From an uncultured Anaerolineae bacterium (GTDB lineage Bacteria > Chloroflexota > Anaerolineae > Anaerolineales > Villigracilaceae), in contig CAKZJX010000129.1 in NCBI GenBank assembly GCA_937120535.1, positions 1-41,082 of the forward strand: a DNA stretch of 41,082 nt, read 5' to 3'. The position numbers and the translations under genes were made by a program. The first letter of the stretch is position 1. Every line of letters starts with the position of its first letter. Under the pieces are notes generated by a model. That model had not been told where the DNA came from, did not search any database, and saw only the letters and a program-made list of their open reading frames with translations. Shown here in pieces: positions 4,197 through 16,784 of the stretch.

Positions 4197-4213
4197 AGAT
4201 CACCGCACCGCAA

Positions 4214-4242
4214 ATTATAGACGGCTTTCTATCCCCTTGCAA
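4214..4242 (-). promoter_or_regulatory. Sigma-70 promoter for dnaG-rpoD
   Basis: On the minus strand TTGCAA (4242-4237) and TATAAT (4219-4214) are separated by exactly 17 bases. The predicted transcription start near 4207 leaves a leader of about 10 bases before the dnaG ATG at 4196. Confidence 0.75.
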
Positions 4243-4380
4243 TCGCTGGCCATCCTTCTCAGGACTTTTTATCCCCAGTCATTGCCAAGCGAGCTGAGGT
4301 TATTTTCCAAACCACATGCGGCCCAGCAAGCCATCTTTCAGATGAATTAATGGCAGAGCGCCGCCAGACATAAAATCCGC

Positions 4381-4400
4381 CGGCGGCTTTGTCGCCGCCG
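4381..4400. other. GC-rich hairpin in the dnaG/GntR divergent region
   Basis: CGGCGGC at 4381-4387 and GCCGCCG at 4394-4400 are perfect inverted arms with a 6-base loop. There is no T run on the + side. It lies between two divergent promoters and could be a regulatory structure or binding site. No other function can be read from it. Confidence 0.35.
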
Positions 4401-4436
4401 AACAACAAAGGGAAAAATCCTTATGACATCTATCAC

Positions 4437-4464
4437 TTGGCAAAGCGCTCGTCCTATATATAAT
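4437..4464 (+). promoter_or_regulatory. Promoter of the GntR-methyltransferase block, leaderless type
   Basis: TTGGCA (4437-4442) and a perfect TATAAT (4459-4464) are separated by 16 bases. Transcription should begin at about 4471, essentially on the ATG at 4472, so the mRNA would have no leader and no Shine-Dalgarno site. Confidence 0.7.
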
Positions 4465-4471
4465 ACATAAT

Positions 4472-5224
4472 ATGAGTCCCCCTCCGATCCTGATCCGCCA
4501 ATCCCTTCGAAACGAAGTTTTCGACATCTTACACAAACGCATCATCGCCGGCGAGATCCGCCCCGGCGAATGGCTACGTCAGGAAGAGATCGCCTCGCAA
4601 CTGGGGGTGAGCATGACTCCGGTGCGCGAGGCGCTTGATCTGTTGGTCGCGGCCGGCCTGGCCGAGCGCGTCCCCTATCGCGGCGTTCGCGTCCTTCAAC
4701 TGACCCACGAAGAGATGCTAGATGCCTACGGCCTGCGACTGCTGCTCGAGCCCCTGGGGGCGCGCTTAGCTGCCCAACAGGCCTCACCCGATCAGATCGA
4801 GGAGGGGCGACGCCTTCTCGAGGAGATGAGCGCTCTCGTTCATCTTGAAGACATGCCTCGGCTACACGAAGCCTCGCGTCGCTTCCACGCCCTCATCTTA
4901 GACATGAGCGGCAGTACCTTGCTGATTCGCTTATACGGGATTGTGACCAATCAATTCCCGGATTGGATGCTCTACGAGGCCATGTTCCGCCACCCCGAAG
5001 CCCTGAGCGAAAGCCTACAGCGCGATCGTGCCGAACACCGAGCCATCCTAGAAGCCATCGCCGCTCACGACCCTGACGCTGCCGCCTGCGCCGCCCGCCG
5101 CCACATCCTCTCCCTCGGTCATGACCTACAAGACTACCTAGCTATCTCGCGCCAACGCTTGGAAGAGAAGGAGCGCCTGTTCACCCCTTGCGATCTTAGC
5201 CGCTCCGATCCCCCGGCCGGCTAA
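4472..5224 (+). CDS. GntR family regulator with FCD ligand domain
   Basis: The first ~75 of 250 residues form a GntR winged helix; the recognition region reads QEEIASQLGVSMTPVREAL, the classic GntR signature. The rest (about 82-215) is an all-helical FCD domain, which in this family binds small carboxylates and similar ligands and often a metal. FCD regulators usually repress a neighbouring catabolic operon until the substrate appears. The gene is first in the + strand block with the methyltransferase genes, 25 bases ahead of the corrinoid protein gene, so it most likely controls that block and itself. The ligand cannot be read from sequence. Confidence 0.9.
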   Translation: MSPPPILIRQSLRNEVFDILHKRIIAGEIRPGEWLRQEEIASQLGVSMTPVREALDLLVAAGLAERVPYRGVRVLQLTHEEMLDAYGLRLLLEPLGARLAAQQASPDQIEEGRRLLEEMSALVHLEDMPRLHEASRRFHALILDMSGSTLLIRLYGIVTNQFPDWMLYEAMFRHPEALSESLQRDRAEHRAILEAIAAHDPDAAACAARRHILSLGHDLQDYLAISRQRLEEKERLFTPCDLSRSDPPAG

Positions 5225-5249
5225 TTCTATTTCTTCCTAAGGAGAACCC

Positions 5250-5903
5250 ATGTCTCAGGAACTCTTAGAAAAAATGGCCCAATCCATCATTGACGGCGAT
5301 GCCGATCTGGCCGCCGAGTTGGCCCGTCAAGCAATCGCCGAAGGGCTCGACCCTTTGTTCGTGATCACCAACGGCTATGTGCCTGGGATCAACAAAGTCG
5401 GCGAAGCCTTTGGGGCAGGCGAAGCCTTTTTGCCGGAGCTGGTCATGGCCGGCGAAGCCATGAAGGCCGCTGTGGTCGTATTAGAGCCCGAACTGCTCAG
5501 GAAAGGCTCCGAGCGCAAGACCCTCGGCAAGGTGGTCATGGCCACTGTAGAAGGCGATATTCACGAGATCGGCAAATCACTGGTCTCCACCATGCTCTCC
5601 GCAGCCGGCTTTACAGTATACGACATGGGGGTAGACAACCCGTCCGACAAGATCATCGAAAAGGCCCTCGAAGTGGACGCCGATATCATCGGCCTCTCGG
5701 CCCTGCTGACCACCACCATGATCCGTCAGAAAGAAGTGATCGACAAGCTGGACGCTCGCGGCCTGCGCAAGAAGATCAAAGTAATGGTCGGCGGCGCGCC
5801 GGTCACCCGTGAATGGGTCCAAAAGATCGAGGCCGATGGCTACTCCGAAGATGCCATTGGCGCCGTTGCTGTGGCCAAAAAACTAATGGGCATCGAAGCA
5901 TAA
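5250..5903 (+). CDS. Cobalamin-binding (corrinoid) methyl carrier protein
   Basis: Small carrier that shuttles a methyl group on its cobalt (MtbC/MttC/MtgC-like family). Residues 1-90 form the four-helix cap domain and about 93-215 the Rossmann-like B12 domain. The cobalt-ligand signature D-x-H-x-x-G is intact at 103-108 (GDIHEIG, lower axial ligand His105), followed by a typical LSALLTTTM segment and GGAPVT near the end. A strong AAGGAG site lies 5 bases before the ATG. It is the only corrinoid protein in the window and is followed directly by two methyltransferase genes, so both may use it. No reductive activase of the RamA type is present nearby. Confidence 0.93.
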   Translation: MSQELLEKMAQSIIDGDADLAAELARQAIAEGLDPLFVITNGYVPGINKVGEAFGAGEAFLPELVMAGEAMKAAVVVLEPELLRKGSERKTLGKVVMATVEGDIHEIGKSLVSTMLSAAGFTVYDMGVDNPSDKIIEKALEVDADIIGLSALLTTTMIRQKEVIDKLDARGLRKKIKVMVGGAPVTREWVQKIEADGYSEDAIGAVAVAKKLMGIEA

Positions 5904-5923
5904 CCTCCCCAATTCTTAATACT

Positions 5924-7381
5924 ATGACCAAAACTATTCAATCCATCACCAACCCCAAGTTGCGCCTAGAGGTGCTCACCGCCGACGAAGTGCGCCGCAT
6001 TCACGACGCCACCCTCTACATGATCGAGAAGGTAGGCGTGCGCTTCCCCTCAAAACGCGCTCTCGAGATCTGGGAAGCCCATGGAGCAGAGGTAGACCAC
6101 CAGACCAAAATCGTACGCGCCAAACCCCATCTGATCGAAGAAGCTCTCAAACAAGCGCCTCCGGCCTACATGCTGGCGGCTCGCGATCCCCAACAAGACC
6201 TACCGTTGGACGGCAACCACGTCTTTGTCGGCACCGACGGCTGTGGTGTGGAAGTGATTGATATCTATACCGGTCAGCGCCGCACCTCCTGCCTGAACGA
6301 CGTGCGTGACATTGCCCGCATCGCCGACGCCACACCTGAGATCGCCTTCCACTGGGTGCCGCTCTCGGCCCAGGACAAACCCCCTCACACCCGCGGCTTG
6401 CACGAGATCAAAGTCATCTGGGAGAACTCCACCAAGCACGTTCAAACCGAGTCGATCTACAACGAGCGCGAAGCCCGCGCAGCGATGGAAATAGCCGCCC
6501 TGATCGCCGGTGGCAAAGAAGAGCTGCGCAAACGGCCAGTGCTCTCCCTCATGCAGTGTTCCACGCCGCCTCTGGGTCACGACGGCGGCTCCCTGGATGC
6601 CGCCCTGGTAGCTGCCGAGTTCGGTGTTCCCACCGGCTTCATGACCATGGCCTCTTGCCTGACCACCGGCCCAGCAACCCTGGCCGGCAACCTGGTGGTT
6701 GGCAATGCCGAGGTGATTGCCGCTACCGCTCTCCTACAACTGGCCTATCCGGGTGCGCCGGTCTTCTATGCGGCGGCCCAAACGGCCTCCGATCTGCGCA
6801 CCGGCGCCTACACCGGCGGCGGCCCAGAAGATTTCCTGCTGGCTGCAGCCGGCGGCGTCCTGGCCGACTTCTACAACATCCCCATCTCCATGGGATCGTT
6901 TGCTACTGGCGCCAAAGAACCCAACTGGCAAGCCGGCATCGAAAACTCCCTCTCCACCTTTATGGCCAGCATTACCATGTGCGACATGCTACTGGGAGTC
7001 GGCTTTCTCTATGGTTCGCGCATCTGGTCGTATGCCCAGATGATGATGGACTGCGAGATCTTCAACATCGTGCACAAAATGATGCAGGGCATTGTGGTGG
7101 ATGAGGAAACCCTAGCCCTTGAAACCATCGCCGCCGTGGGGCCAGGCGGTAACTTCCTGGCCCAAAAGCACACCAAGCGACACATGCGCAACCTCTTTCT
7201 GCCTGAGTTCCTAGATCGCCGCCCCTACGGCGAATGGGAAACCAAGCGCGACGACGCCCGCGATTGGGCGTTGGCCAAGGCCCGACGCATCTTGGCCGAA
7301 CACCAGCCCGATCCCCTCGACCCCAAACTCTCGGCCGAACTCGACCGAATTATCGAATCCCTAGAGCGCGTCCCGGTCTGA
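5924..7381 (+). CDS. MttB family amine methyltransferase, non-pyrrolysine (copy 1)
   Basis: Member of the trimethylamine methyltransferase family (COG5598), 485 residues from ATG 5924; the frame is open further upstream but that part overlaps the corrinoid gene. The N-terminus (PKLRLEVLTADEVRRIHDAT) and the body with GFMTMASCLTTGPATLAGN fit the TIM-barrel family. No in-frame TAG interrupts the gene, so it lacks the pyrrolysine codon of archaeal mttB. Characterised non-pyrrolysine relatives demethylate quaternary amines such as glycine betaine, proline betaine or carnitine and hand the methyl group to a corrinoid protein. The gene starts 20 bases after the corrinoid gene. The substrate is unknown. 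Confidence 0.88.
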   Translation: MTKTIQSITNPKLRLEVLTADEVRRIHDATLYMIEKVGVRFPSKRALEIWEAHGAEVDHQTKIVRAKPHLIEEALKQAPPAYMLAARDPQQDLPLDGNHVFVGTDGCGVEVIDIYTGQRRTSCLNDVRDIARIADATPEIAFHWVPLSAQDKPPHTRGLHEIKVIWENSTKHVQTESIYNEREARAAMEIAALIAGGKEELRKRPVLSLMQCSTPPLGHDGGSLDAALVAAEFGVPTGFMTMASCLTTGPATLAGNLVVGNAEVIAATALLQLAYPGAPVFYAAAQTASDLRTGAYTGGGPEDFLLAAAGGVLADFYNIPISMGSFATGAKEPNWQAGIENSLSTFMASITMCDMLLGVGFLYGSRIWSYAQMMMDCEIFNIVHKMMQGIVVDEETLALETIAAVGPGGNFLAQKHTKRHMRNLFLPEFLDRRPYGEWETKRDDARDWALAKARRILAEHQPDPLDPKLSAELDRIIESLERVPV

Positions 7382-7414
7382 GCTTGGCATACCCGCTCAC
7401 CCGAAACGATAGCC

Positions 7415-8884
7415 ATGCGCCCCAAATTGGAATTCCTCCCCCCAACCTTAATTGCGCGCATCCTCGACGAAGCCTTTCAACTGATGCAAAAACCCGGCAT
7501 CAAGGTCCAATCTGAGGAAGCGCGGCAACTGCTGGCAGCGGCCGGCGCCGACGTCGACGAAACCACCCAGGTGGTCCGCATTCCCGAGAAGGTGGTTCGC
7601 GCTGCGCTGGAAACCGTTCCCTCCGAGTTCTATCTCTACGATCGAAACGGCCGGCCCACGGTGCACTACGGCGGCGACGACGTGCACTTCGACCCCGGCT
7701 CCTCCGCCGTTCACATCCTGGACCCAGAGACCGGCAAACACCGCCCGTCCGAAACCCGCGACCTGGCGCGCCTGGTCAAAGTGGCCGAGACGCTTTCCCA
7801 GTACGACGCCCAATCCACAGCCGTCCTGTGCAACGACGTCGCCAAGGAGATCGGCGATCTGTTTCGCCTCTACGTGGTGCTGATGCTTTCCGAAAAGCCG
7901 ATCGTGACCGGCGCCTTCTCGCTCACGACGCTGGATGCCATGATCGACATGTTGGCCCTGTTCGCCGGCGGGCGCAAGGAACTGGCCGAAAAACCTCAGG
8001 CGGTCTTCGATGTCTGTCCCTCGCCGCCGCTGATCTGGTCGTCGTTCGGGGCCGGCAACTTGATCGCTTTGGCGCGCGCCAGCGTGCCGGCCGAGATCGT
8101 CTCCATGCCCTTGGCCGGCGCAGGGGCTCCAGTGACGTTGATCGGCTCGATCGTCCAGCACGCTGCCGAATGCCTGAGCGGCATCACCATCCACCAACTC
8201 GCCAACCCAGGCGCGCCCATCGTTTGGGGAGGCGCGCCGGCCATCTTCGACATGCGCAAAGGTGGCACGCCCATGGGCGCCATCGAGACTGCTATGCTCG
8301 ATGCTGGCTATGCGCAAGTCGGCAAATCGCTCAACTTGCCCACCCACGGCTACCTGGGCGCCACCGACAGCAAAGTGGTGGACATGCAAGCCGGCCTGGA
8401 GAGCGGCATGACCGCCTTGGTGGGCGCTCTGGCCGGCATCAACATGATCTCTGGCGCCGGCATGCTCGACTTCCTCGCCTGTCAGAGCACCGAGAAGTTA
8501 GCCATCGATGCTGAGATCATCGGCATGTGCAAGCGCCTGTTGGAGGGCATACAGGTCCGCACCGACACCTTGGCCACCGGCCTGTTCGAAGGCATTGACT
8601 TCAAGGCCGACTTCCTCAAACAAAAGATCACCCGTCAACTGTTTGCTGTGGAGCAGTACCTGCCTTCCCCGATCATTGACCGCGACTCGATCCGCGGCTG
8701 GCAGGACTCCGGTTCGCTCGACACCCTGGCTCGCGCCCAGGCCCGGGTGAACGACCTGGTGAGCAAGTACCGTCGCCCAGCGATCGCCCTGCGGCACGAG
8801 CAAGACCTGGTAAAATTTGTCACAGACTTGGCCCGCCAGGCAGGCATGAAGACCTTGCCCGCGTTAGAAGAAACCCCCAGTTGA
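7415..8884 (+). CDS. MttB family amine methyltransferase, non-pyrrolysine (copy 2)
   Basis: 489 residues, same family as the preceding gene but clearly diverged from it. It carries the stretch VHFDPGSSAVHILDPETGK, common in bacterial MttB homologues, and a conserved hydrophobic barrel (GAGAPVTLIGSIVQHAAECL). It has no in-frame TAG, so no pyrrolysine. It starts 33 bases after copy 1 and has only a weak ribosome site. Two unlike methyltransferases beside one corrinoid protein suggest two methylated substrates, or two successive demethylations, feeding one carrier. The substrate cannot be told from sequence. Confidence 0.87.
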   Translation: MRPKLEFLPPTLIARILDEAFQLMQKPGIKVQSEEARQLLAAAGADVDETTQVVRIPEKVVRAALETVPSEFYLYDRNGRPTVHYGGDDVHFDPGSSAVHILDPETGKHRPSETRDLARLVKVAETLSQYDAQSTAVLCNDVAKEIGDLFRLYVVLMLSEKPIVTGAFSLTTLDAMIDMLALFAGGRKELAEKPQAVFDVCPSPPLIWSSFGAGNLIALARASVPAEIVSMPLAGAGAPVTLIGSIVQHAAECLSGITIHQLANPGAPIVWGGAPAIFDMRKGGTPMGAIETAMLDAGYAQVGKSLNLPTHGYLGATDSKVVDMQAGLESGMTALVGALAGINMISGAGMLDFLACQSTEKLAIDAEIIGMCKRLLEGIQVRTDTLATGLFEGIDFKADFLKQKITRQLFAVEQYLPSPIIDRDSIRGWQDSGSLDTLARAQARVNDLVSKYRRPAIALRHEQDLVKFVTDLARQAGMKTLPALEETPS

Positions 8885-8945
8885 CTTCAGCCATAGCCAG
8901 TCGGCCTCCTGCCTCGCTTGCGCTGGTCCAACCCATCTCTTAAAA

Positions 8946-10760
8946 GTGGAAGCCCCTGTGATCCTCGACCTAGAAGTCCTGCTCCGCATCCCCGAAGTAG
9001 ACATTCACGGTGGTTACCATATTTCTCCCGACGGCCGCTACCTGGCCTTCTCCTGGAACAAGAGCGGCCTGTGGGAAATCTACGAACTCGACCTGACCAC
9101 CCTTTCCCAAGCCGAGACCCGAATCGTTCAGCGTTCCTCCGGGCCGGGGGGCAAATTTGTCCCGCGTTACTCGCCCGATGGGCGCTGCCTGGTCTGGGCC
9201 CTCGACCTGGATGGCAGTGAGCGCTTCCATCTTATCCTCTTCGAGCGAGAAACCGGCCAGCAGCGCAATCTGACCCCGGACGCGCCCTTCACCATCCAAC
9301 CTTCGTACTCCTGGTCGCCCGACAACCGTCGCCTCGCCTACCTCTGCGATGCCCACGACAACTTCGACCTCTACATACTTGACATGCACGAGCCGCAACC
9401 AAGCGACAAGCCGTTCTTCGAGACCGGCGGATCGGCTCATTTCGTGCGCTGGTCGCCCGATGGCCGTCACATCGCTGTGGTGGCCGAAAAGGAATGGCAG
9501 ACCGATGGCACCTTTATTGTGCCACTCGATGGCGGCCCAGCGCGGCGCATCGGCGGGGCTGAGGCCCTAGATGCCGCCCAGCCCGATTGGTCGCCAGATG
9601 GCCACAGCGTGGTCTTTTCCTCCCAGTCGGGGGAATGGGCCCAGATTGGCATCTATCGGCTAAGCGACGAGCACATTGAATGGCTCACCGCCGACCAGGG
9701 GAACAAGATCAACCCCGTCTGGTCGCCCGATGGGAGGCGCTTGGCCTGGGTGAACAATCACAGGGAAAGCGCTTGGGTGGAGATCCGCTCGTCGGACGGA
9801 AGCCGGCTGCGGGTGGAGCCAGAAGCGGGGTTCGCTCATCGTCCACGATTCACGCCAGATGGGCGCGCCCTGCTGTTCATCCACGAATCCCCACAGCATC
9901 CAGCCGGCCTCTGGATGTTTTCCCTAGACGATCATCGCTTGACCCGTTTGACCGACTCGCTCCCGCTGGAGTGGCGGTCGGTCCAATTCGTCCAGCCTCA
10001 GGCGATCAGCTATCCTTCGATGGATGGCACGCTGGTGCCGGCCGTGCTCTATGCGCCGCCGGGCGCCGGCCCAAATTCGCCGGCCGTGGTGGTGATCCAC
10101 GGCGGGCCGGCCTGGCACATCGGGCTCTATTGGAGCCCGCTCATCGCCCACATGACCTCGCGCGGATGGACGGTGATCGCACCCAACTACCGCGGTTCCA
10201 CCGGTTACGGCCAAGCCTGGATGAAGGCCAACCGCTATGAGATGGGACGGCTGGATACCGACGACTGCGCAGCGGCCGCCTTGTACCTGGTGCGCCAGGG
10301 GTTGGCCCATCCCAAGAAGATCGGGGTCACCGGACGTAGCCACGGCGGTTATCTGACCATGAGCTGCCTCACCCGCTACCCCGACTTATGGGCGGCCGGC
10401 TCGGCAGTGGTCCCCTTCCTCAACTGGTTTACTGGCCACGAAAACGTCCGACCCGATTTGCAGTATTGGGATATTCTGAACATGGGCGACCCGGTCACCC
10501 ATCGCGATTTGTGGTATGAACGCTCACCGTTCTTCTTCCTCGATCGGGTAAAAGCACCGGTGCAGTTCATCTGCGGGGAAAACGACACGCGTTGTCCGCC
10601 CGAAGAGTCGCTCGAGGCCGATCGGAAACTCCAAGCCTTGGGCATTCCCAGTGAACTCCATCTCTACCCGGGCGAAGGGCACGGATTCTTGAAGCTCGAG
10701 AACGTGATTGACTCGGAAAAGAAGTGTGTGGCGTTCCTGGCCCGTTTCTTAGAAGCCTGA
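8946..10760 (+). CDS. S9 family prolyl oligopeptidase-like serine peptidase
   Basis: 604 residues with no signal peptide visible, so probably cytoplasmic. The N-terminal ~340 residues are a beta-propeller with repeated WSPDG/YSPDG-type blades. The C-terminal alpha/beta-hydrolase has nucleophile Ser465 in GRSHGG, Asp547 in GENDTRCPP and His579 in GEGHGF, plus the oxyanion region HGGPAWH. Family members are acylaminoacyl peptidases, dipeptidyl peptidases and some esterases. The start is GTG at 8946, with GTG 8958 as an alternative. It lies inside the methyltransferase block, 61 bases after copy 2. It may release a methylated amino acid or free an ester-linked substrate, but that is inference. 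Confidence 0.88.
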   Translation: MEAPVILDLEVLLRIPEVDIHGGYHISPDGRYLAFSWNKSGLWEIYELDLTTLSQAETRIVQRSSGPGGKFVPRYSPDGRCLVWALDLDGSERFHLILFERETGQQRNLTPDAPFTIQPSYSWSPDNRRLAYLCDAHDNFDLYILDMHEPQPSDKPFFETGGSAHFVRWSPDGRHIAVVAEKEWQTDGTFIVPLDGGPARRIGGAEALDAAQPDWSPDGHSVVFSSQSGEWAQIGIYRLSDEHIEWLTADQGNKINPVWSPDGRRLAWVNNHRESAWVEIRSSDGSRLRVEPEAGFAHRPRFTPDGRALLFIHESPQHPAGLWMFSLDDHRLTRLTDSLPLEWRSVQFVQPQAISYPSMDGTLVPAVLYAPPGAGPNSPAVVVIHGGPAWHIGLYWSPLIAHMTSRGWTVIAPNYRGSTGYGQAWMKANRYEMGRLDTDDCAAAALYLVRQGLAHPKKIGVTGRSHGGYLTMSCLTRYPDLWAAGSAVVPFLNWFTGHENVRPDLQYWDILNMGDPVTHRDLWYERSPFFFLDRVKAPVQFICGENDTRCPPEESLEADRKLQALGIPSELHLYPGEGHGFLKLENVIDSEKKCVAFLARFLEA

Positions 10761-10787
10761 CCTCCGGAGCGTATCGCCCATGCTTCT

Positions 10788-10955
10788 CTCCCCCGCCTCG
10801 TTAGACGCCCTGCACCACGCGCACGCGAGAGCTAGATCGCATCCTGGAGACGGTCGGCAGGGAGCAGCTCGCCGGAAGAAGCAGTGCGCTTGCCGGCTGG
10901 CCTAGCCGCCAGCTGAAACCGCCTATCCCCACACACCGATGTTCTGGAGGGCAGT
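10788..10955 (+). other. Intergenic stretch with possible broken coding remnant
   Basis: The 195-base gap is the longest inside the + strand block. An ATG near 10780 begins a protein-like run (LLSPASLDALHHAH). After a one-base shift near 10826 a second protein-like run follows (ELDRILETVGREQLAG). Together they look like a decayed short gene, but I recognise no family. A strong GGAGG at 10946-10950 serves the next gene. Confidence 0.25.
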
Positions 10956-11837
10956 ATGCACACCGTTCTCAAAGGCAAAAGCAAAGACGTGATCATCGGC
11001 CCCGACAAACCGTTCGTGATCATTGGCGAGAAGATCAACCCAACCGGCAACAAGAAACTGGCTGCCGCCTTGACCGAAGGAAATTACCCACTAGCCCTGA
11101 CCTTGGCCCAACGCCAGATCGCCTGGGGGGCCGATGTCCTGGATGTCAACGTAGGAGTTCCCGACTTAGACGAAGTGACCGCCATCCGTTCCCTGGTGGC
11201 CCTGCTGGCCGAGCAGGTGGACCTGCCGCTGTGCATCGACTCGAACAGCCCACAGGTGCTGGAGGCCGGCCTCTCGGTGGCTCCTGGAAAACCCCTGGTC
11301 AATTCGGTCAGCGCCGAGGAGCGATCCCTGAACGCCATCCTCCCCATCGTCAAAGATCGAAACGCCGCTGTGATCGGCCTGACCATCTCTGAGAGCGGCA
11401 TCCCCAAGACAGCTGAGGAGCGCCTGGCCTTGGCTGAAAAAATCCTGGAACGCGCTGCGCAGAAAGGCATTCCAGCCGAAGATGTGATCATTGACCCCGT
11501 GGTGATGACCGTCGGTTCTGACAGCAAAGCGGCCCTGGTCACCCTGCAAACCATCGAATTGCTACGGCGCGAGTTCGGTGTGAACATCAGCCTAGGCGCC
11601 AGCAACGTCTCATTTGGCCTGCCCGACCGCCACACCGCCAACCAAGTGTTTCTGGCCATGGCCATCCAGGCCGGCGCTACCTGCGCCATCACCGACCCGA
11701 TCAAACTCGGTCAAACAGTGCGCGCCGCCGACCTGATGCTCGGCAAAGATGACTTCGCCATGCGCTACATCAAATACTTCCGCGCCGCCGAAAAGCGCCG
11801 TCAAGAAGAACAACTCGCTCAATCTGCAAAACCATGA
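10956..11837 (+). CDS. Methyltetrahydrofolate/corrinoid methyltransferase (pterin-binding, MtgA/AcsE-like)
   Basis: TIM-barrel pterin-binding enzyme of 293 residues, related to dihydropteroate synthase. Visible family motifs are IGEKINPTG near the N-terminus, DVLDVNVG, CIDSN, NSVS, IIDPVVMTVG and GASNVSFGLPDR. This set is typical of enzymes that move a methyl group between a corrinoid protein and tetrahydrofolate (AcsE, MtgA, MtrH-like). With the MttB enzymes and corrinoid protein upstream, the likely job is transfer from methyl-corrinoid to tetrahydrofolate, as in bacterial glycine betaine demethylation. GGAGG lies 5 bases before the ATG. The stop overlaps the next start as ATGA, tying it to the decarboxylase genes. 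Confidence 0.9.
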   Translation: MHTVLKGKSKDVIIGPDKPFVIIGEKINPTGNKKLAAALTEGNYPLALTLAQRQIAWGADVLDVNVGVPDLDEVTAIRSLVALLAEQVDLPLCIDSNSPQVLEAGLSVAPGKPLVNSVSAEERSLNAILPIVKDRNAAVIGLTISESGIPKTAEERLALAEKILERAAQKGIPAEDVIIDPVVMTVGSDSKAALVTLQTIELLRREFGVNISLGASNVSFGLPDRHTANQVFLAMAIQAGATCAITDPIKLGQTVRAADLMLGKDDFAMRYIKYFRAAEKRRQEEQLAQSAKP

Positions 11838-12160
11838 CCTCCAACCTCCCGTTCGTCTTGCAAATCACCCTGGTCGGCATGGGATTGGTGTTTGCTATCT
11901 TGGGCCTGCTGGCCTTGGGCATTGCCCTGCTGACCCGCTTGGTCCCCGAACGGCCAGCCCGCACGCCACCTCCCTCCCCCATCCAGCAAGAGCAGGCGCG
12001 TGCGGCGGCCATTGCCGTTGCCCTAGCGCTGGCTAGCCAGGCCCGGTCCACGGCGCGGCCGATCATCCCCCCAGAGCTAACCATCGTCGACGCCTGGCAG
12101 CTGGGCATGCGCACCCGCCAAATGACTCAGAAAGGCAACATGGGACGCCGACGAGAATAA
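11834..12160 (+). CDS. Na+-translocating decarboxylase gamma/delta (OadG/MmdD-like) subunit
   Basis: A 108-residue protein with one N-terminal membrane helix (about 7-35, LQITLVGMGLVFAILGLLAL) and an Ala/Arg/Pro-rich cytoplasmic tail, the architecture of OadG and MmdD. These subunits hold the carboxyltransferase and biotin carrier against the beta subunit. Sequence conservation in the family is low, so the call leans on position: the gene precedes biotin carrier and beta-subunit genes in the order known from methylmalonyl-CoA decarboxylase (delta, gamma, beta). Its start overlaps the pterin enzyme stop by 4 bases. Confidence 0.75.
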   Translation: MTSNLPFVLQITLVGMGLVFAILGLLALGIALLTRLVPERPARTPPPSPIQQEQARAAAIAVALALASQARSTARPIIPPELTIVDAWQLGMRTRQMTQKGNMGRRRE

Positions 12161-12178
12161 CTTCAACGCGAGAGACAT

Positions 12179-12577
12179 ATGCATTACCGCATTCGCATTA
12201 AAGACAAAACCTACGATGTTGTCATTGAAGATCTCAACGCCCGACCGATCCGAGTCCTTGTGGACGGAGAACCCTTTGAAGTGATGCCCGAACCGGGTCA
12301 GGACACGGCTGCGGCTCCCCATCCCCCTGCTGTCGGCCTCGGCATCAGAGGCAGCGAGAGCGAAGATCCGATCCTGCTGGCGCCGCTGCCCGGCACCGTT
12401 ACCGAGATCCTCGTCCATCCAGGGGACAGGGTAGAAAGCGGACAGCCGATCCTGATCATCGAGGCCATGAAGATGAAGAACTACCTGCGCGCCCCGCGCG
12501 CCGGCCAGATTGCCGCCATCTTGGTCCAGCCAGGACAAACCGTCAACCACAAGCAGCCCCTTCTGGAGTTTGCATGA
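12179..12577 (+). CDS. Biotin carboxyl carrier subunit of a decarboxylase
   Basis: 132 residues. The C-terminal ~75 residues form a biotinyl domain with the attachment motif EAMKMK, biotinyl lysine at Lys98, in the context LIIEAMKMKNYLRAPRAG. The N-terminal ~60 residues are a small beta-rich segment found in OadA/MmdC-type carriers, followed by a linker. The protein would carry CO2 from a carboxyltransferase to the membrane beta subunit. The stop overlaps the beta-subunit start as ATGA. A biotin ligase and the carboxyltransferase must be encoded elsewhere. Confidence 0.88.
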   Translation: MHYRIRIKDKTYDVVIEDLNARPIRVLVDGEPFEVMPEPGQDTAAAPHPPAVGLGIRGSESEDPILLAPLPGTVTEILVHPGDRVESGQPILIIEAMKMKNYLRAPRAGQIAAILVQPGQTVNHKQPLLEFA

Positions 12578-13710
12578 ACCTGTCCGATCTTCTGGCCAAC
12601 CTGTTCGGCGAGCTGACCTTCACTTGGGCCAACGCCGTCATGCTGCTCGTCGGCGGCATCTTAATTTACCTGGCCATAGCAAAAGAATACGAGCCCGTCT
12701 TACTGCTGCCGATCGGTTTCGGCTGCATCCTGGCCAACCTGGGAATGTCGGTCTACGCTCCGGAGAGCTTCCTGGGCGTGATCTATCGCGCTGGCATCGA
12801 AACCGATCTCTTCCCCTTGCTGATCTTCATCGGCGTTGGCGCCATGATCGACTTTCGCCCCCTGCTGGCCCAACCCCACCTGGCCTTGCTCGGAGCGGCC
12901 GGCCAATTCGGCATCTTCGGAACCTTGCTCTTGGCGACTGCCCTGGGATTTCCGTTGAACGAGGCCGCCTCGATCGGCGTGATCGGAGCGATCGACGGCC
13001 CCACCGCCATCTACGTGACCGCCAAACTAGCCCCGCATCTTCTCGGACCGGTAGCGGTCGCGGCCTACTCGTACATGAGTCTCATCCCGATCATTCAACC
13101 CCCAATCATGCGCCTGCTCACCACGCACCGCGAACGCCGCCTCCGCATGGACTACGCCCCGCGACCGGTCTCACGCACCACAGCCCTCCTCTTCCCCATC
13201 CTGATCACCATCCTAGTTAGCCTGATTGCGCCGGCCGCGGCCCCTCTGATCGCTGCCCTGATGCTGGGCAACCTGCTGCGCGAGGCCGGGGTGGTCGAGC
13301 GTCTCTCCAAGACCGCCCAAAACGAACTGATCAACATCGCCACCCTGTTCCTCGGCCTGACGATCGGCGCTACCATGACCGCCGAGAAGTTCGTATACGA
13401 CCCTGCCACGGGCTTCCAATGGCAAACCTTGCTGGTGCTGATGCTCGGCCTGCTCGCCTTTGTGGTGGACACGGTAGCCGGCCTGCTGTTCGGCAAACTG
13501 ATGGGATGGGTCACCGGTGGCAAGATCAATCCCCTGATCGGCGCCTGTGGCATTTCGGCCTTCCCGATAGCCGGTCGGCTCTCGGCGCGTGTCGCCCTCG
13601 AAGAAGACCCTGACAACTATCTCCTCATGCACGCCATGGGATCGAACACGGCCGGCCAACTGGGGAGCGTGATCGCCGGCGGCATCCTGCTAGCAATGGT
13701 CTTGGCGTGA
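12574..13710 (+). CDS. oadB: Na+-translocating decarboxylase beta subunit
   Basis: Polytopic membrane protein of 378 residues that decarboxylates carboxybiotin and pumps Na+ (OadB/MmdB/GcdB family). The key conserved region GAIDGPTAIYVTAKLAP carries Asp141, matching the essential Asp of the family. The C-terminal Na+-site region MGSNTAGQLGSVIAGG carries Asn358. About nine hydrophobic helices are visible, and the length is normal. It closes the + strand block; a hairpin at 13751-13772 follows. The alpha subunit that would define the substrate (oxaloacetate, methylmalonyl-CoA, glutaconyl-CoA) is missing from the window. Confidence 0.92.
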   Translation: MNLSDLLANLFGELTFTWANAVMLLVGGILIYLAIAKEYEPVLLLPIGFGCILANLGMSVYAPESFLGVIYRAGIETDLFPLLIFIGVGAMIDFRPLLAQPHLALLGAAGQFGIFGTLLLATALGFPLNEAASIGVIGAIDGPTAIYVTAKLAPHLLGPVAVAAYSYMSLIPIIQPPIMRLLTTHRERRLRMDYAPRPVSRTTALLFPILITILVSLIAPAAAPLIAALMLGNLLREAGVVERLSKTAQNELINIATLFLGLTIGATMTAEKFVYDPATGFQWQTLLVLMLGLLAFVVDTVAGLLFGKLMGWVTGGKINPLIGACGISAFPIAGRLSARVALEEDPDNYLLMHAMGSNTAGQLGSVIAGGILLAMVLA

Positions 13711-13750
13711 TCCGGGCCGATCCGTCCCTCAAGCAGCACAAGCAAACTGC

Positions 13751-13772
13751 GGCGTTCCTGGTAGGGAACGCC
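13751..13772. terminator. Hairpin between convergent genes
   Basis: GGCGTTCC (13751-13758) and GGAACGCC (13765-13772) form a perfect 8-bp stem with a 6-base loop. A second weaker stem (GCAAG/CTTGC) follows at about 13786-13801. Neither has a T run, so this may be a bidirectional transcription barrier rather than a classical terminator. Confidence 0.4.
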
Positions 13773-13807
13773 ACAGAGCTCCAGAGCAAGGCTTCTGCTT
13801 GCCTCAG

Positions 13808-14875
13808 CTAGCGAGCCTGATCCCAAATTGCCGTGGTGAACGCCCTGTTGACATCCACCTCAGCCGGCAGGGCTTGATATTGCGCCAACATCGCTGCCAG
13901 CGCCTGCCACTGCTCGGCGCTCTGCCAGCCAAAGCCATATGCGCTTTGGGCATCCTGCAGCTCAGTCTGCAGCATGTAGCGCATGTGATCGGGGTCGGTC
14001 TCGGGGCCGGCATATTTCAGAACGATCTCGACCGCCTGGTCAGGATGCGCCTGGGCATACTCGATACCTTGCAGCGCCGCACGCAAGAAGCGGGAGAGAA
14101 GCTCGGGCTGTTCGGCCAAGTAGCGCTCGCTGGTCACATAGGTCAAGCCCAAGGTCGGCACGCCATAGTCAGCTGCATCCCACAACACCAATTCATGTCC
14201 CCAACGGCGCAACAGGTACGGCTCATTGGATTTGAAGAGCGGATACACATCCACCTGCTTCTCCGAGAGCACGCGCGGGTCAAATCCTACGTTGACAAGG
14301 TTGACTTTGTTCACATCAGCGCCGGCCGCGTTAAGCAGGGCGAACAGATCAGGTGGGGGCGTGCCTTTATAGCCCACGATCTTGCCTTCCCAATCTTTGG
14401 GGGTTTTCAATCCCGATTCTTTGAGGGCGGCAAACGCTTGCTGACCACGCTGGCCGATCAAGGCGATGGCCACTACCGGCAAGCCTGGATCGGCGCGGCG
14501 TTGAAGCACGGTCGCAGCGTCCATCGTTGTCACCTGCACAGTTCCGGCTACCAGCAGTTGCACATGCTCTCCACGACCTGGAGAATGTTCAATGGTCACA
14601 TCCAAGCCCTGTTCGGCAAAAAACCCTTTCTCTTTCGCTACATAGGCACCGACGAAAGGCAGATTGGCCTGGGGTTTATAGCCGGCCATAAAGGTCAGCG
14701 CGATCAAGGGTTGGGCGGTAGGAGGTTCTGATGTTGTCGTGGCTTGTGCTTGGGTCGGGTTCTCTGTGCCAAGCGTTTCTGCGGTCGGGGCCGGCGAAAC
14801 GATCGGCGCTTGAGGTTGACAGGCGCTCAATGTCAAGAGCAAGGCGATCAGCATTGAGAACACGATGGTTCGCAT
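13808..14875 (-). CDS. ABC transporter substrate-binding lipoprotein (NMT1/SsuA-like)
   Basis: About 355 residues from ATG 14875. A lipoprotein signal ends with the lipobox LTLSAC, lipidated Cys19, then a Pro/Thr-rich linker. The mature part reads as the NMT1/ThiY/SsuA fold (YVAKEKGFFAEQGLDVTIEH near the N-terminus; IVGYKGTPPPDLFALL and LLSRFLRAALQGIEYAQAHP later). Such proteins deliver pyrimidine precursors, sulfonates, nitrate or other small organics. The longer frame to 14929 would overlap the permease end and add 18 residues before the signal, so I reject it. It is the last gene of a three-gene unit after the regulator and permease. Confidence 0.87.
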   Translation of the reverse strand: MRTIVFSMLIALLLTLSACQPQAPIVSPAPTAETLGTENPTQAQATTTSEPPTAQPLIALTFMAGYKPQANLPFVGAYVAKEKGFFAEQGLDVTIEHSPGRGEHVQLLVAGTVQVTTMDAATVLQRRADPGLPVVAIALIGQRGQQAFAALKESGLKTPKDWEGKIVGYKGTPPPDLFALLNAAGADVNKVNLVNVGFDPRVLSEKQVDVYPLFKSNEPYLLRRWGHELVLWDAADYGVPTLGLTYVTSERYLAEQPELLSRFLRAALQGIEYAQAHPDQAVEIVLKYAGPETDPDHMRYMLQTELQDAQSAYGFGWQSAEQWQALAAMLAQYQALPAEVDVNRAFTTAIWDQAR

Positions 14876-14916
14876 AGTTGGTAAGACTCTCCTTTCTTGA
14901 GATCGATCCTGAAAGA

Positions 14917-15666
14917 TTATCCGTTCCAACGCAGGACTTTTTTCTCCAGCCAGACAATACCAGTGTAGGCGCCCATGCCGGAAAGCGAGAGCAAAAAAAT
15001 GGCGGCAAACATCGGCGGCAGGTTAAGGTTACTATAGGCCAACCACATGATCCGCCCCAGCCCGCCAGAGGCGCCGGTCCACTCGGCAATCACCGCCCCG
15101 ACTAGCGAAAGCGGCGCGGTCACCCGCAGCGCTGCAAAGAAATACGGCAACGCTAGCCAGAGACGCAGATGGATGAGGATCTGCCAGGTAGTGGCCCGGT
15201 ATACCCGCATCAGGTCCAGCAGGTCGCGTTCCACGCTCTGCAAACCGACCAAGACGTTCACCAAAGTCGGAAAGAAGGTGAGCAAAGCGGTGATGATCAC
15301 CTTGGGCAACACCCCAAACCCCAGCCAGATGGTGAGCAGAGGCGCAATGGCCGCCAGCGGTGTGGATTTGATCAGGATGGCTAAGGTCATCACTCCTCGT
15401 TCCAGGTCGGGATTCAGGCTGACTAAGATGGCGATGATCACTCCGATCAACCCACCGACCATCAAGCCGGCCAAGGCTTCGCCCAGGGTGACCATCAGCG
15501 CTTCGACGAAGTAGGCCGGCCGCTCCAGCAGAGTGTTCACCACGCGACTAGGAGCCGGCAACAGGTAGACCGGAACACCATACCAACGCACCCAACCTTC
15601 CCACAGGACAAAGACAGCAGCGATTAGCAGCAAGGCGAGAGCCAACGAGCGGTTCAGCAAGCTCAT
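14917..15666 (-). CDS. ABC transporter permease (SsuC/TauC-like)
   Basis: About 249 residues from ATG 15666, which lies 11 bases beyond the regulator stop and has a GAGG site before it; the longer frame would run into the regulator gene. Six hydrophobic helices are visible. The cytoplasmic coupling region ([20 protein letters not shown]) precedes the conserved stretch [21 protein letters not shown]. The protein belongs to the BPD_transp_1 family next to NMT1-type binding proteins. No ATPase gene lies before or after, so the transporter must borrow one encoded elsewhere, or the locus has lost it. The last codons contain a CAGGACTTTTT match to the regulator's operator. Confidence 0.87.
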
Positions 15667-15677
15667 TCGACAGGACC

Positions 15678-16784
15678 TCACGCCAACCCTTGCCAGGCGG
15701 TCAAGGTATCGGGCGTAATGCGAAAGGCGCGCCACTCAGTTGTCGGCAAAGGACTGCTCTGACCTAGATAGCGCCGGCGCAACCGATGGAGCAGGCCGTT
15801 AAGCTCCCCAGGCAGTTCCGCGCTTTCCAGCGGAATGGCCCGCCCGCGAGCCAAGACGCGCCGCAAAGGCGGCCAAGGCTCATCTACGGTCAACGAGACC
15901 AACGGGTTGGCCAACACATATCCCGCCCATAGTGATCCCTGCCAAGCAGCTAGGTAGAAATACCGCCCATCCCACTCCTGCCAGACGGGAACCACATGGG
16001 GCGAGCCATCAGGGCGCACACAAGCCAGGCGCGCGATCCACGGGCCGGCCAGAAACGCAGCGATCTCCTCGGCGCTCAACGCTTTGCGAACGATCGGCGC
16101 CTCTGGCGATGGACCTTGCCAGGGACGATAGCGCATGGCGCCCAGACGATACGAAAGCCGCGCTGCCATCTCGCGCAGCGGCGGCAGAAAGCGTTCCACG
16201 TCCTGATCGCGCCATCGAAAGGCCGGCGCACTGAGCAAGAGCGCTGCTGAGGGAGTCCGTCCATCGCGGCAGATAGGCAACGCCAGGTCTACGCTGTCGT
16301 CAGATTGAACCAGGGCATACCCCTGGCAGAGGACCGCTTCAGACGGAGCAGTCAGCAACACCTGGCCAGCGGCGCTCTCTGCGCCGAACGGCCGGCCCGG
16401 CGCAAACACCACTCGCACCTGTGATGTCCCCTCCACCTGGGCAGACAACACACCCCCCGAAGCCGTCGGCACCACCAAAGCCAACGTCTCGGCTAGGTTC
16501 AACGCTGAGGCTTCTTGATAGAACGCCGTTTCCAAGCTGGGTATCGACATTCTACCTGCGCGCCAAGCTAGCAGGCGAGGGCCGGCCCGGTACCGCCCGC
16601 GCTTCTCCGCCTGCTCCACATATCCCAACGCCTTTAGCGTATTGAGCAGCACAAACAGCGAGCTCCGTGAGATGTCCACTCGAGCGAGCAACTCAGGCAG
16701 CTCCGCCCCCTGAGGATGCTCGAGGAGGATCTCAAGCAAAAGCAGAGCACGCTCTACAGAAGGATTGCCGGCTTCCGAAGACAT
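15678..16784 (-). CDS. IclR-type regulator fused to a pyridoxamine-phosphate-oxidase-like domain
   Basis: 368 residues in three parts. Residues 5-75 are an IclR winged helix ([40 protein letters not shown]). Residues 90-215 resemble a shortened IclR effector domain. Residues 234-365 form a split-barrel flavin-binding-like domain ([20 protein letters not shown], then [19 protein letters not shown]). Split-barrel proteins bind FMN, F420 or haem, so the regulator may sense a cofactor, redox state or pyridoxal-type ligand. It heads an operon with the ABC permease and binding protein. Its promoter overlaps a large inverted repeat, so it very likely regulates itself and the transporter. Confidence 0.8.

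Follow-up and report, generated by a model that had tools for sequence, protein, structure and literature searches.

The window analysed here is the whole of a 41,082-nucleotide stretch, contig CAKZJX010000129.1 (C129) of assembly GCA_937120535.1, from an uncultured Anaerolineae bacterium of the family Villigracilaceae (genome G000). Its plus strand carries a run of nine genes (4472-13710), in the order GntR, corrinoid protein, MttB1, MttB2, S9, MtgA, MmdD/OadG, MmdC/BCCP and MmdB/OadB, in which genes of methyl-corrinoid demethylation (mtg) are followed by the membrane part of a Na+-pumping decarboxylase (mmd). We find that this run is very probably one of two chimeric operons that arose by a reciprocal exchange of operon tails, because the tail that the mtg operon has lost follows mmdA elsewhere in the same genome, and the tail that mmdA has lost follows mtgA in the window.

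An earlier interpretation of the window (the sequence-only reading) had set the membrane subunits of a Na+ decarboxylase beside a betaine- or amine-type methyl path, plausibly as a single operon, and this description holds. Each of the genes that it named has a clear family score at its position, although the run also includes an S9 peptidase (8946-10760) and a GntR regulator (4472-5224) that it did not list. It noted the lack of a local carboxyltransferase, and indeed our profile search finds none among the nine genes.

Each missing tail is found at the complementary junction

On contig C80 of G000, the genes after mmdA encode DUF1638, a RACo-type corrinoid activase and a Rieske oxygenase. 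G027 and G041 also have the swapped arrangement, and there RACo comes directly after mmdA, the two genes sharing a 4-base ATGA overlap. RACo thus lies downstream of mmdA in each of the three swapped genomes; in the remaining genomes of the genus that we compared (5/5), it stands with the mtg cluster. The mtg tail reads mtgA-RACo-Rieske in G051 and mtgA-DUF1638-RACo in G074 and G068 (the G068 mtgA is matched in part, near a contig end), while G002 and G060 have M20-RACo without mtgA between them (L168, L169). MtgA of G060 lies on another contig and G002 has only a MetH-sized match; the mtg cluster can lose its MtgA or have it relocated. The resemblance extends to the spacers: the mmdA-DUF1638 spacer of G000 ends in the leader TTTAGAGGTACC, like the leader TTAAAGGTATCC of the mtgA-DUF1638 spacer of G074. 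Two papers link DUF1638 and RamA-like proteins to cobalamin reactivation, leaving the role of DUF1638 itself open (PMC5764234, PMC12478193).

In G000, G027 and G041, both novel junctions are present and both ancestral junctions are absent, and none of the 8 genomes of the genus compared here has only one of the two chimeric junctions. The two ancestral operons would have been GntR-CP-MttB1-MttB2-S9-MttB3-M20-MtgA-(DUF1638)-RACo-(Rieske), where CP is the corrinoid protein, for corrinoid-dependent demethylation, and mmdA-mmdD-mmdC-mmdB, for a biotin-dependent Na+-pumping decarboxylase. Their rearrangement would have yielded mtgA-mmdD-mmdC-mmdB, as in the window, and mmdA-DUF1638-RACo-Rieske, as on C80.

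The Rieske oxygenase, which follows RACo in G000 and G051 (L109:5172-6290, L114:15493-16617), is an oxygen-dependent type of enzyme adjoining an anaerobic-type cluster. The G000 protein scores 230 bits on the model of glycine betaine monooxygenase GbcA, for which the cut-off is 670.

The carboxyltransferase of the pump is encoded on another contig

A search of the G000 contigs with PF01039 returned two carboxyltransferases, on C87 and C80, and none on the window contig. The C80 protein (636 bits) has no pump genes beside it. It shares 86-87% identity with MmdA from the canonical operons of G068, G051 and G002, 87% with the unlinked MmdA of G027 and G041, and 81% with the MmdA that precedes mmdD in G072, a member of another genus of the same family. 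These identities mark the C80 protein as orthologous to the MmdA whose gene immediately precedes mmdD in relatives. The C87 protein is more likely part of a carboxylase, since a biotin carboxylase gene adjoins it and its identity is only ∼60%. Because C87 scores higher than C80 on TIGR01117 (850 versus 754 bits), with both below the cut-off of 998.8, it is orthology and gene order, not this model, that assign C80 to the pump. We also looked for an alpha subunit of the OadA type, with an HMGL domain: both PF00682 matches are on C35 (L111), whereas the only OadB, single-copy in G000, is on C129.

Thus all four Mmd subunit types are present in G000, with the alpha subunit unlinked, and the earlier claim that the pump lacks its alpha subunit is not supported; we reject a pump that works without a carboxyltransferase. 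A novel fused C1/Na+ system, as the wording of the sequence-only reading implies, in which the pump would dispense with a carboxyltransferase or take its carboxyl group from a donor linked to the methyl-corrinoid path, would account for a nine-gene run without a carboxyltransferase. Against it, G000 does encode an orthologue of the pump's own carboxyltransferase, at a locus that has no pump genes, MmdC keeps its biotin motif and MmdB its Na+-site residues. We regard such a system as scarcely credible.

The mtgA-mmdD junction is rare in the family

We sampled 100 genomes of the family and found OadB in 41 of them; its surroundings in the 40 genomes other than G000 were compared by tblastn. MmdA stands directly upstream of the pump genes (mmdA-mmdD-mmdC-mmdB) in 37/40 of these loci, including one (L055) where OadG is below the listing score. 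MtgA takes the place of mmdA in two loci (G027 and G041), and in the remaining one (L075) the contig starts inside OadB. MtgA (E ≤1e-80) is found in 57/100 genomes, and 28 genomes have both MtgA and OadB. These are within 2 kb of each other in 3/28, so that the pairing is found beyond the one genome in which it was first seen, and are on different contigs or >1 Mb apart in 25/28.

In a named collection, which may omit records very near the window genome, two short peptide patterns retrieved 42 MtgA relatives (40/42 with Chloroflexota-type titles), and OadB lies downstream of MtgA in one of the 42, UBA7227, on the same contig as in G041. Loci L120, L121 and L153 likewise duplicate contigs of G074, G051 and G060. 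G027 and G041 are near-identical in the compared proteins (branch lengths ∼0.002), and hence the mtgA-mmdD junction is known from two lineages. An assembly error is ruled out, since the junction occurs in three assemblies, once inside a 3.1 Mb contig.

The sequence-only reading had held that C1 metabolism and Na+ energetics were deliberately joined. This is not supported: the two gene sets are unlinked in most of the genomes that have both, the missing halves are found at the complementary junction, and a reciprocal exchange fits best. For a designed coupling as such we have no evidence, and none against it.

Gene order and the proposed inversion

The simplest event that would produce both chimeric operons is an inversion with its ends between mtgA and its tail and between mmdA and mmdD. 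On contig C1 of G027, the best-assembled relative, the minus strand carries mtgA-mmdDCB at 2.140-2.143 Mb (junction 2.142 Mb) and the plus strand carries mmdA-RACo at 2.828-2.831 Mb (junction 2.8295 Mb). Inverting the ∼0.69 Mb between the two junctions restores mtgA-RACo and mmdA-mmdD together; as the junctions are on opposite strands, one inversion suffices, which would not be possible had they been on the same strand. The orientation is known for G027 alone, as in G000 and G041 the two junctions lie on different contigs. What can be read directly is which genes are present, how they join at the two junctions, which locus is the reciprocal partner, how relatives order these genes and on which strands they lie in G027; the inversion as the event is inferred from these.

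We compared gene order in relatives with two stretches of G027, ∼2.00-2.30 and ∼2.71-2.97 Mb. Beyond mmdA, nearly all reciprocally matched genes fall in the stretch around G027 mmdA, 28/31 for G051 and 14/15 for G002. On the mmdB side, the matched genes that adjoin G027 mmdB are 8/8 for G051, 8/8 for G068 and 6/14 for G002. Gene order is heavily shuffled and therefore supports the split in outline only.

This shuffling, together with the difference between G000 and G027 in the genes that follow mmdA, could also point to two unrelated events, in which mmdA was translocated alone and mmdDCB was captured by the mtg operon. We consider this improbable: in each of the three genomes, the genes that come after mmdA are those missing from the mtg operon, and the strands in G027 agree with a single inversion.

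Recombination at a repeat common to both ancestral spacers is not supported, as judged from G051 at E 0.01, although small dispersed repeats do occur in its spacers. In G002, the spacer between mmdA and mmdD (L039, ∼9013-9168) consists largely of a short repeat with 177 blastn matches within 258 kb, and dispersed repeats in spacers may drive the shuffling of gene order in the genus.

Evidence against a single exchange, and one origin or two

Several observations weigh against a single reciprocal exchange by inversion. The other 8 of the 14 matched genes on the mmdB side of G002 map to 2.165-2.196 Mb in G027, which is the mtgA side of the junction, a position that one inversion alone does not explain. 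The flanks of G000 beyond both operons have no match in the compared stretches of G027, and the two ancestral spacers of G051 share no repeat at E 0.01. G074 and G060 have no OadB or MmdA orthologue, and thus bear on the mtg operon only.

Phylogeny adds to these points. In a single-matrix tree of MmdA and OadB (40 genomes), G000 falls outside a group of G027/G041 and unswapped relatives with a support of 100, and a single-matrix tree of DnaG, RpoD, NuoL and NuoM gives the same placement (support 98.8/91). A correct placement would mean either two swaps or one swap and one reversal. Trees built with a mixture model leave the G000 node open in three data sets. G002 groups with G051/G068 by MmdA and OadB and with G060 by the marker proteins, a difference that may reflect movement of the mmd genes within the genus, possibly by horizontal transfer (G002, L039).

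The mixture model does not reject a single clade of G000 and G027/G041 in any of the three data sets: the P value of the approximately unbiased test (p-AU) is 0.266 for 13 proteins, 0.576 for DnaG, RpoD, NuoL and NuoM, where the constrained tree is even slightly better, and 0.352 for MmdA and OadB. In the marker trees, no other member of the genus has a branch as long as that of G000, and the single-matrix placement may therefore be an artefact. A single origin of the swap is thus allowed.

Overlaps at the junction are common background

In the window, the stop of mtgA and the start of mmdD have the sequence ATGA in common (plus strand, 11834-11837), which confirms the 4-base overlap between MtgA and an OadG-like gene given in the sequence-only reading. 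A second 4-base overlap joins MmdC (BCCP) and MmdB (OadB) at 12574-12577. These overlaps had been taken to imply co-translation. They are real, but this implication is weakened: by calling open reading frames on five stretches of G000, we found that 7/75 co-directional neighbour pairs overlap by exactly 4 bases, both window overlaps counted, and in G027 and G041 mtgA and mmdD are separated by an 8-base gap. Given this background and this gap, a 4-base overlap alone is weak evidence of design.

A scan of 4200-13900 on both strands for the sigma-70 consensus gave 2 sites, compared to 2.4 expected from shuffles; the sole plus-strand match, a weak one at 4437-4464, is just before GntR, and there is no match before mmdD in a scan that is uninformative at this chance level.

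An alternative is that the swap happened twice, or that selection kept it, because it pays to express the Na+ pump together with demethylation, and MmdA together with the corrinoid activase. Each pathway would then depend on a gene in the operon of the other, and the two would be co-expressed; for example, C1 and propionyl-CoA metabolism, both probably cobalamin-dependent here, would be run together. We think such adaptive cross-wiring, in its general form and in this example, unlikely, though it has some evidence behind it: the single-matrix trees separate the two swapped lineages, each lineage has one tight ATGA junction (mtgA/mmdD in G000, mmdA/RACo in G027 and G041), and the genome encodes two members of the methylmalonyl-CoA mutase family and, as a possible consumer of methyl-tetrahydrofolate, an acetyl-CoA synthase cluster. 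Against it, the gene sets are unlinked in 25/28 of the genomes with both, 4-base overlaps are common background, and the tests do not reject one origin (p-AU 0.266, 0.576 and 0.352).

Proposed function of the two systems

Both enzymes would be assembled in trans, as all parts have open reading frames, with co-transcription expected within each chimeric operon. In the demethylation system, the MttB proteins would transfer methyl groups from a methylated amine to the corrinoid protein, MtgA would pass them on to tetrahydrofolate (THF), and RACo would re-reduce the corrinoid. In the pump, MmdA would load the biotin of MmdC with a carboxyl group taken from an acyl-CoA, and MmdB would decarboxylate the carboxybiotin and export Na+. 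Since complementary subunits are encoded at the two loci, each system would need both operons expressed. This scheme is drawn from gene families and neighbourhoods throughout.

The pump is most likely a methylmalonyl-CoA decarboxylase and a predicted Na+ exporter; two methylmalonyl-CoA mutase-family genes in G000 make methylmalonyl-CoA the probable substrate. Methyl-THF could probably be oxidised or channelled into acetyl-CoA, because G000 has two MTHFR-family matches and an acetyl-CoA synthase cluster (L119, G000:C111:38000-55000) with AcsB/CdhC, two CdhD-family subunits, a second RACo and a pterin-binding methyltransferase.

In the 32 of the 42 MtgA loci that have at least 5 kb upstream of MtgA, we counted peptidases and MttB. 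Two peptidases are regular members of these Chloroflexota mtg clusters, M20 in 30/32 loci and S9 in 28/32, and MttB is present in 31/32. As M20 and S9 regularly accompany MttB, they suggest a peptide- or amide-linked methylated compound as the mtg substrate; to our knowledge, no characterised MttB system has such peptidases.

Relation to known systems

The four subunit types in G000, and the A-D-C-B order at 37/40 of the loci of relatives, are those of methylmalonyl-CoA decarboxylase (MmdA-D-C-B), but in G000 A is unlinked and D-C-B are joined to mtgA. Pump genes of the glutaconyl-CoA decarboxylase of Acidaminococcus fermentans are described as ‘forming a second operon’ (title of Braune et al. 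1999, cited in PMC7145394). The likeness to our case is that pump genes are split over operons, and the difference is that in G000 mmdA carries the tail of a demethylation operon. In A. fermentans, the separated gene is reportedly gcdA, which is said to be in the other operon with genes of its own pathway.

Glycine betaine demethylation by MtgB, MtgC and MtgA, with RamA and DUF1638, is described in PMC12478193 and PMC5764234. This system has in common with ours an MttB-family enzyme, a corrinoid protein, MtgA, an activase and DUF1638. It differs in that there are here several MttB paralogues and S9 and M20 peptidases, and in that the activase and DUF1638 have moved behind mmdA.

The formation of new operons by genome rearrangement is well known, and work on the life cycle of operons reportedly includes cases in which rearrangement joins unrelated genes into one transcription unit. 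Here, in contrast, there is a reciprocal pair, and both halves have been kept in two lineages; this persistence of a reciprocal exchange is the unusual part. Among the matches listed from open-licence papers (titles and the starts of abstracts), none describes an mtgA/oadB operon arrangement, and we found no paper on reciprocal operon inversion or operon splitting in the open-licence literature. As a natural example of operons that trade tails, the case is a clean one, and it warns against reading function from one neighbourhood, as the ‘missing’ subunit and the ‘fused’ pathway are here one rearrangement. If the swap turns out to be repeated or selected, it could also serve to test whether function determines the make-up of an operon or results from it.

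Features of the two halves of the run

The pump half, all on the plus strand, begins with the small membrane subunit MmdD/OadG (11834-12160), which opens the transplanted tail; it scores 33.3 bits on PF04277 (cut-off 27) and 28 bits on TIGR01195, under the cut-off of 36, and its C-terminus is conserved in relatives. The biotin carrier MmdC (12179-12577; PF00364, 65 bits) has the motif EAMKMKN; the window protein reads IEAMKMKN and those of G027 and G041 read IDAMKMKN, so that DAMKM replaces EAMKM in these two genomes (L036:8205-8642, L037:8507-8944). The carboxybiotin decarboxylase MmdB/OadB (12574-13710) scores 487 bits on PF03977. In an alignment to 6iva, its residues D141, S328 and N358 align with D203, S382 and N412 of Salmonella OadB, which are given as Na+-site residues in PMC7274780.

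The mtg half is likewise on the plus strand. The GntR/FCD regulator (4472-5224) is the first gene of the run and is identified by profile matches; its orthologue heads the clusters of relatives where the locus extends so far. The corrinoid protein (5250-5903) is MtgC-like and above the cut-off of TIGR02370 with 230 bits, and it contains DIHEIG, which we take to be the cobalamin-binding motif. The two MttB homologues (5924-7381 and 7415-8884) score 294 and 286 bits on PF06253. Both frames are without an internal stop, and thus neither has a pyrrolysine codon; both are also under the equivalog cut-off of TIGR02369 (435 and 388 versus 525 bits), and the pyrrolysine-dependent trimethylamine type is ruled out on these two grounds. 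The best solved relatives of MttB1 are 9yce, a glycine betaine methyltransferase, and 2qne, a putative methyltransferase.

The S9 prolyl-oligopeptidase family protein (8946-10760) is a member of the conserved cluster. It is followed by a 195-base gap (10761-10955), where most relatives have MttB3 and/or an M20 peptidase, and the gap holds no recognisable remnant of either (best E 0.11). MtgA (10956-11837), an MtgA/AcsE-like methylcorrinoid:THF methyltransferase that closes the head half, is above the cut-off of NF005719 with 283 bits, and its solved relatives include AcsE. G000 therefore has the parts of an MttB-superfamily system, namely two MttB-family methyltransferases, a corrinoid protein, a methylcorrinoid:THF methyltransferase and an activase (RACo domains, C80). 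After OadB, a minus-strand run (13808-16784) resembles, by its translated open reading frames, an ABC transporter binding protein, a permease and a regulator.

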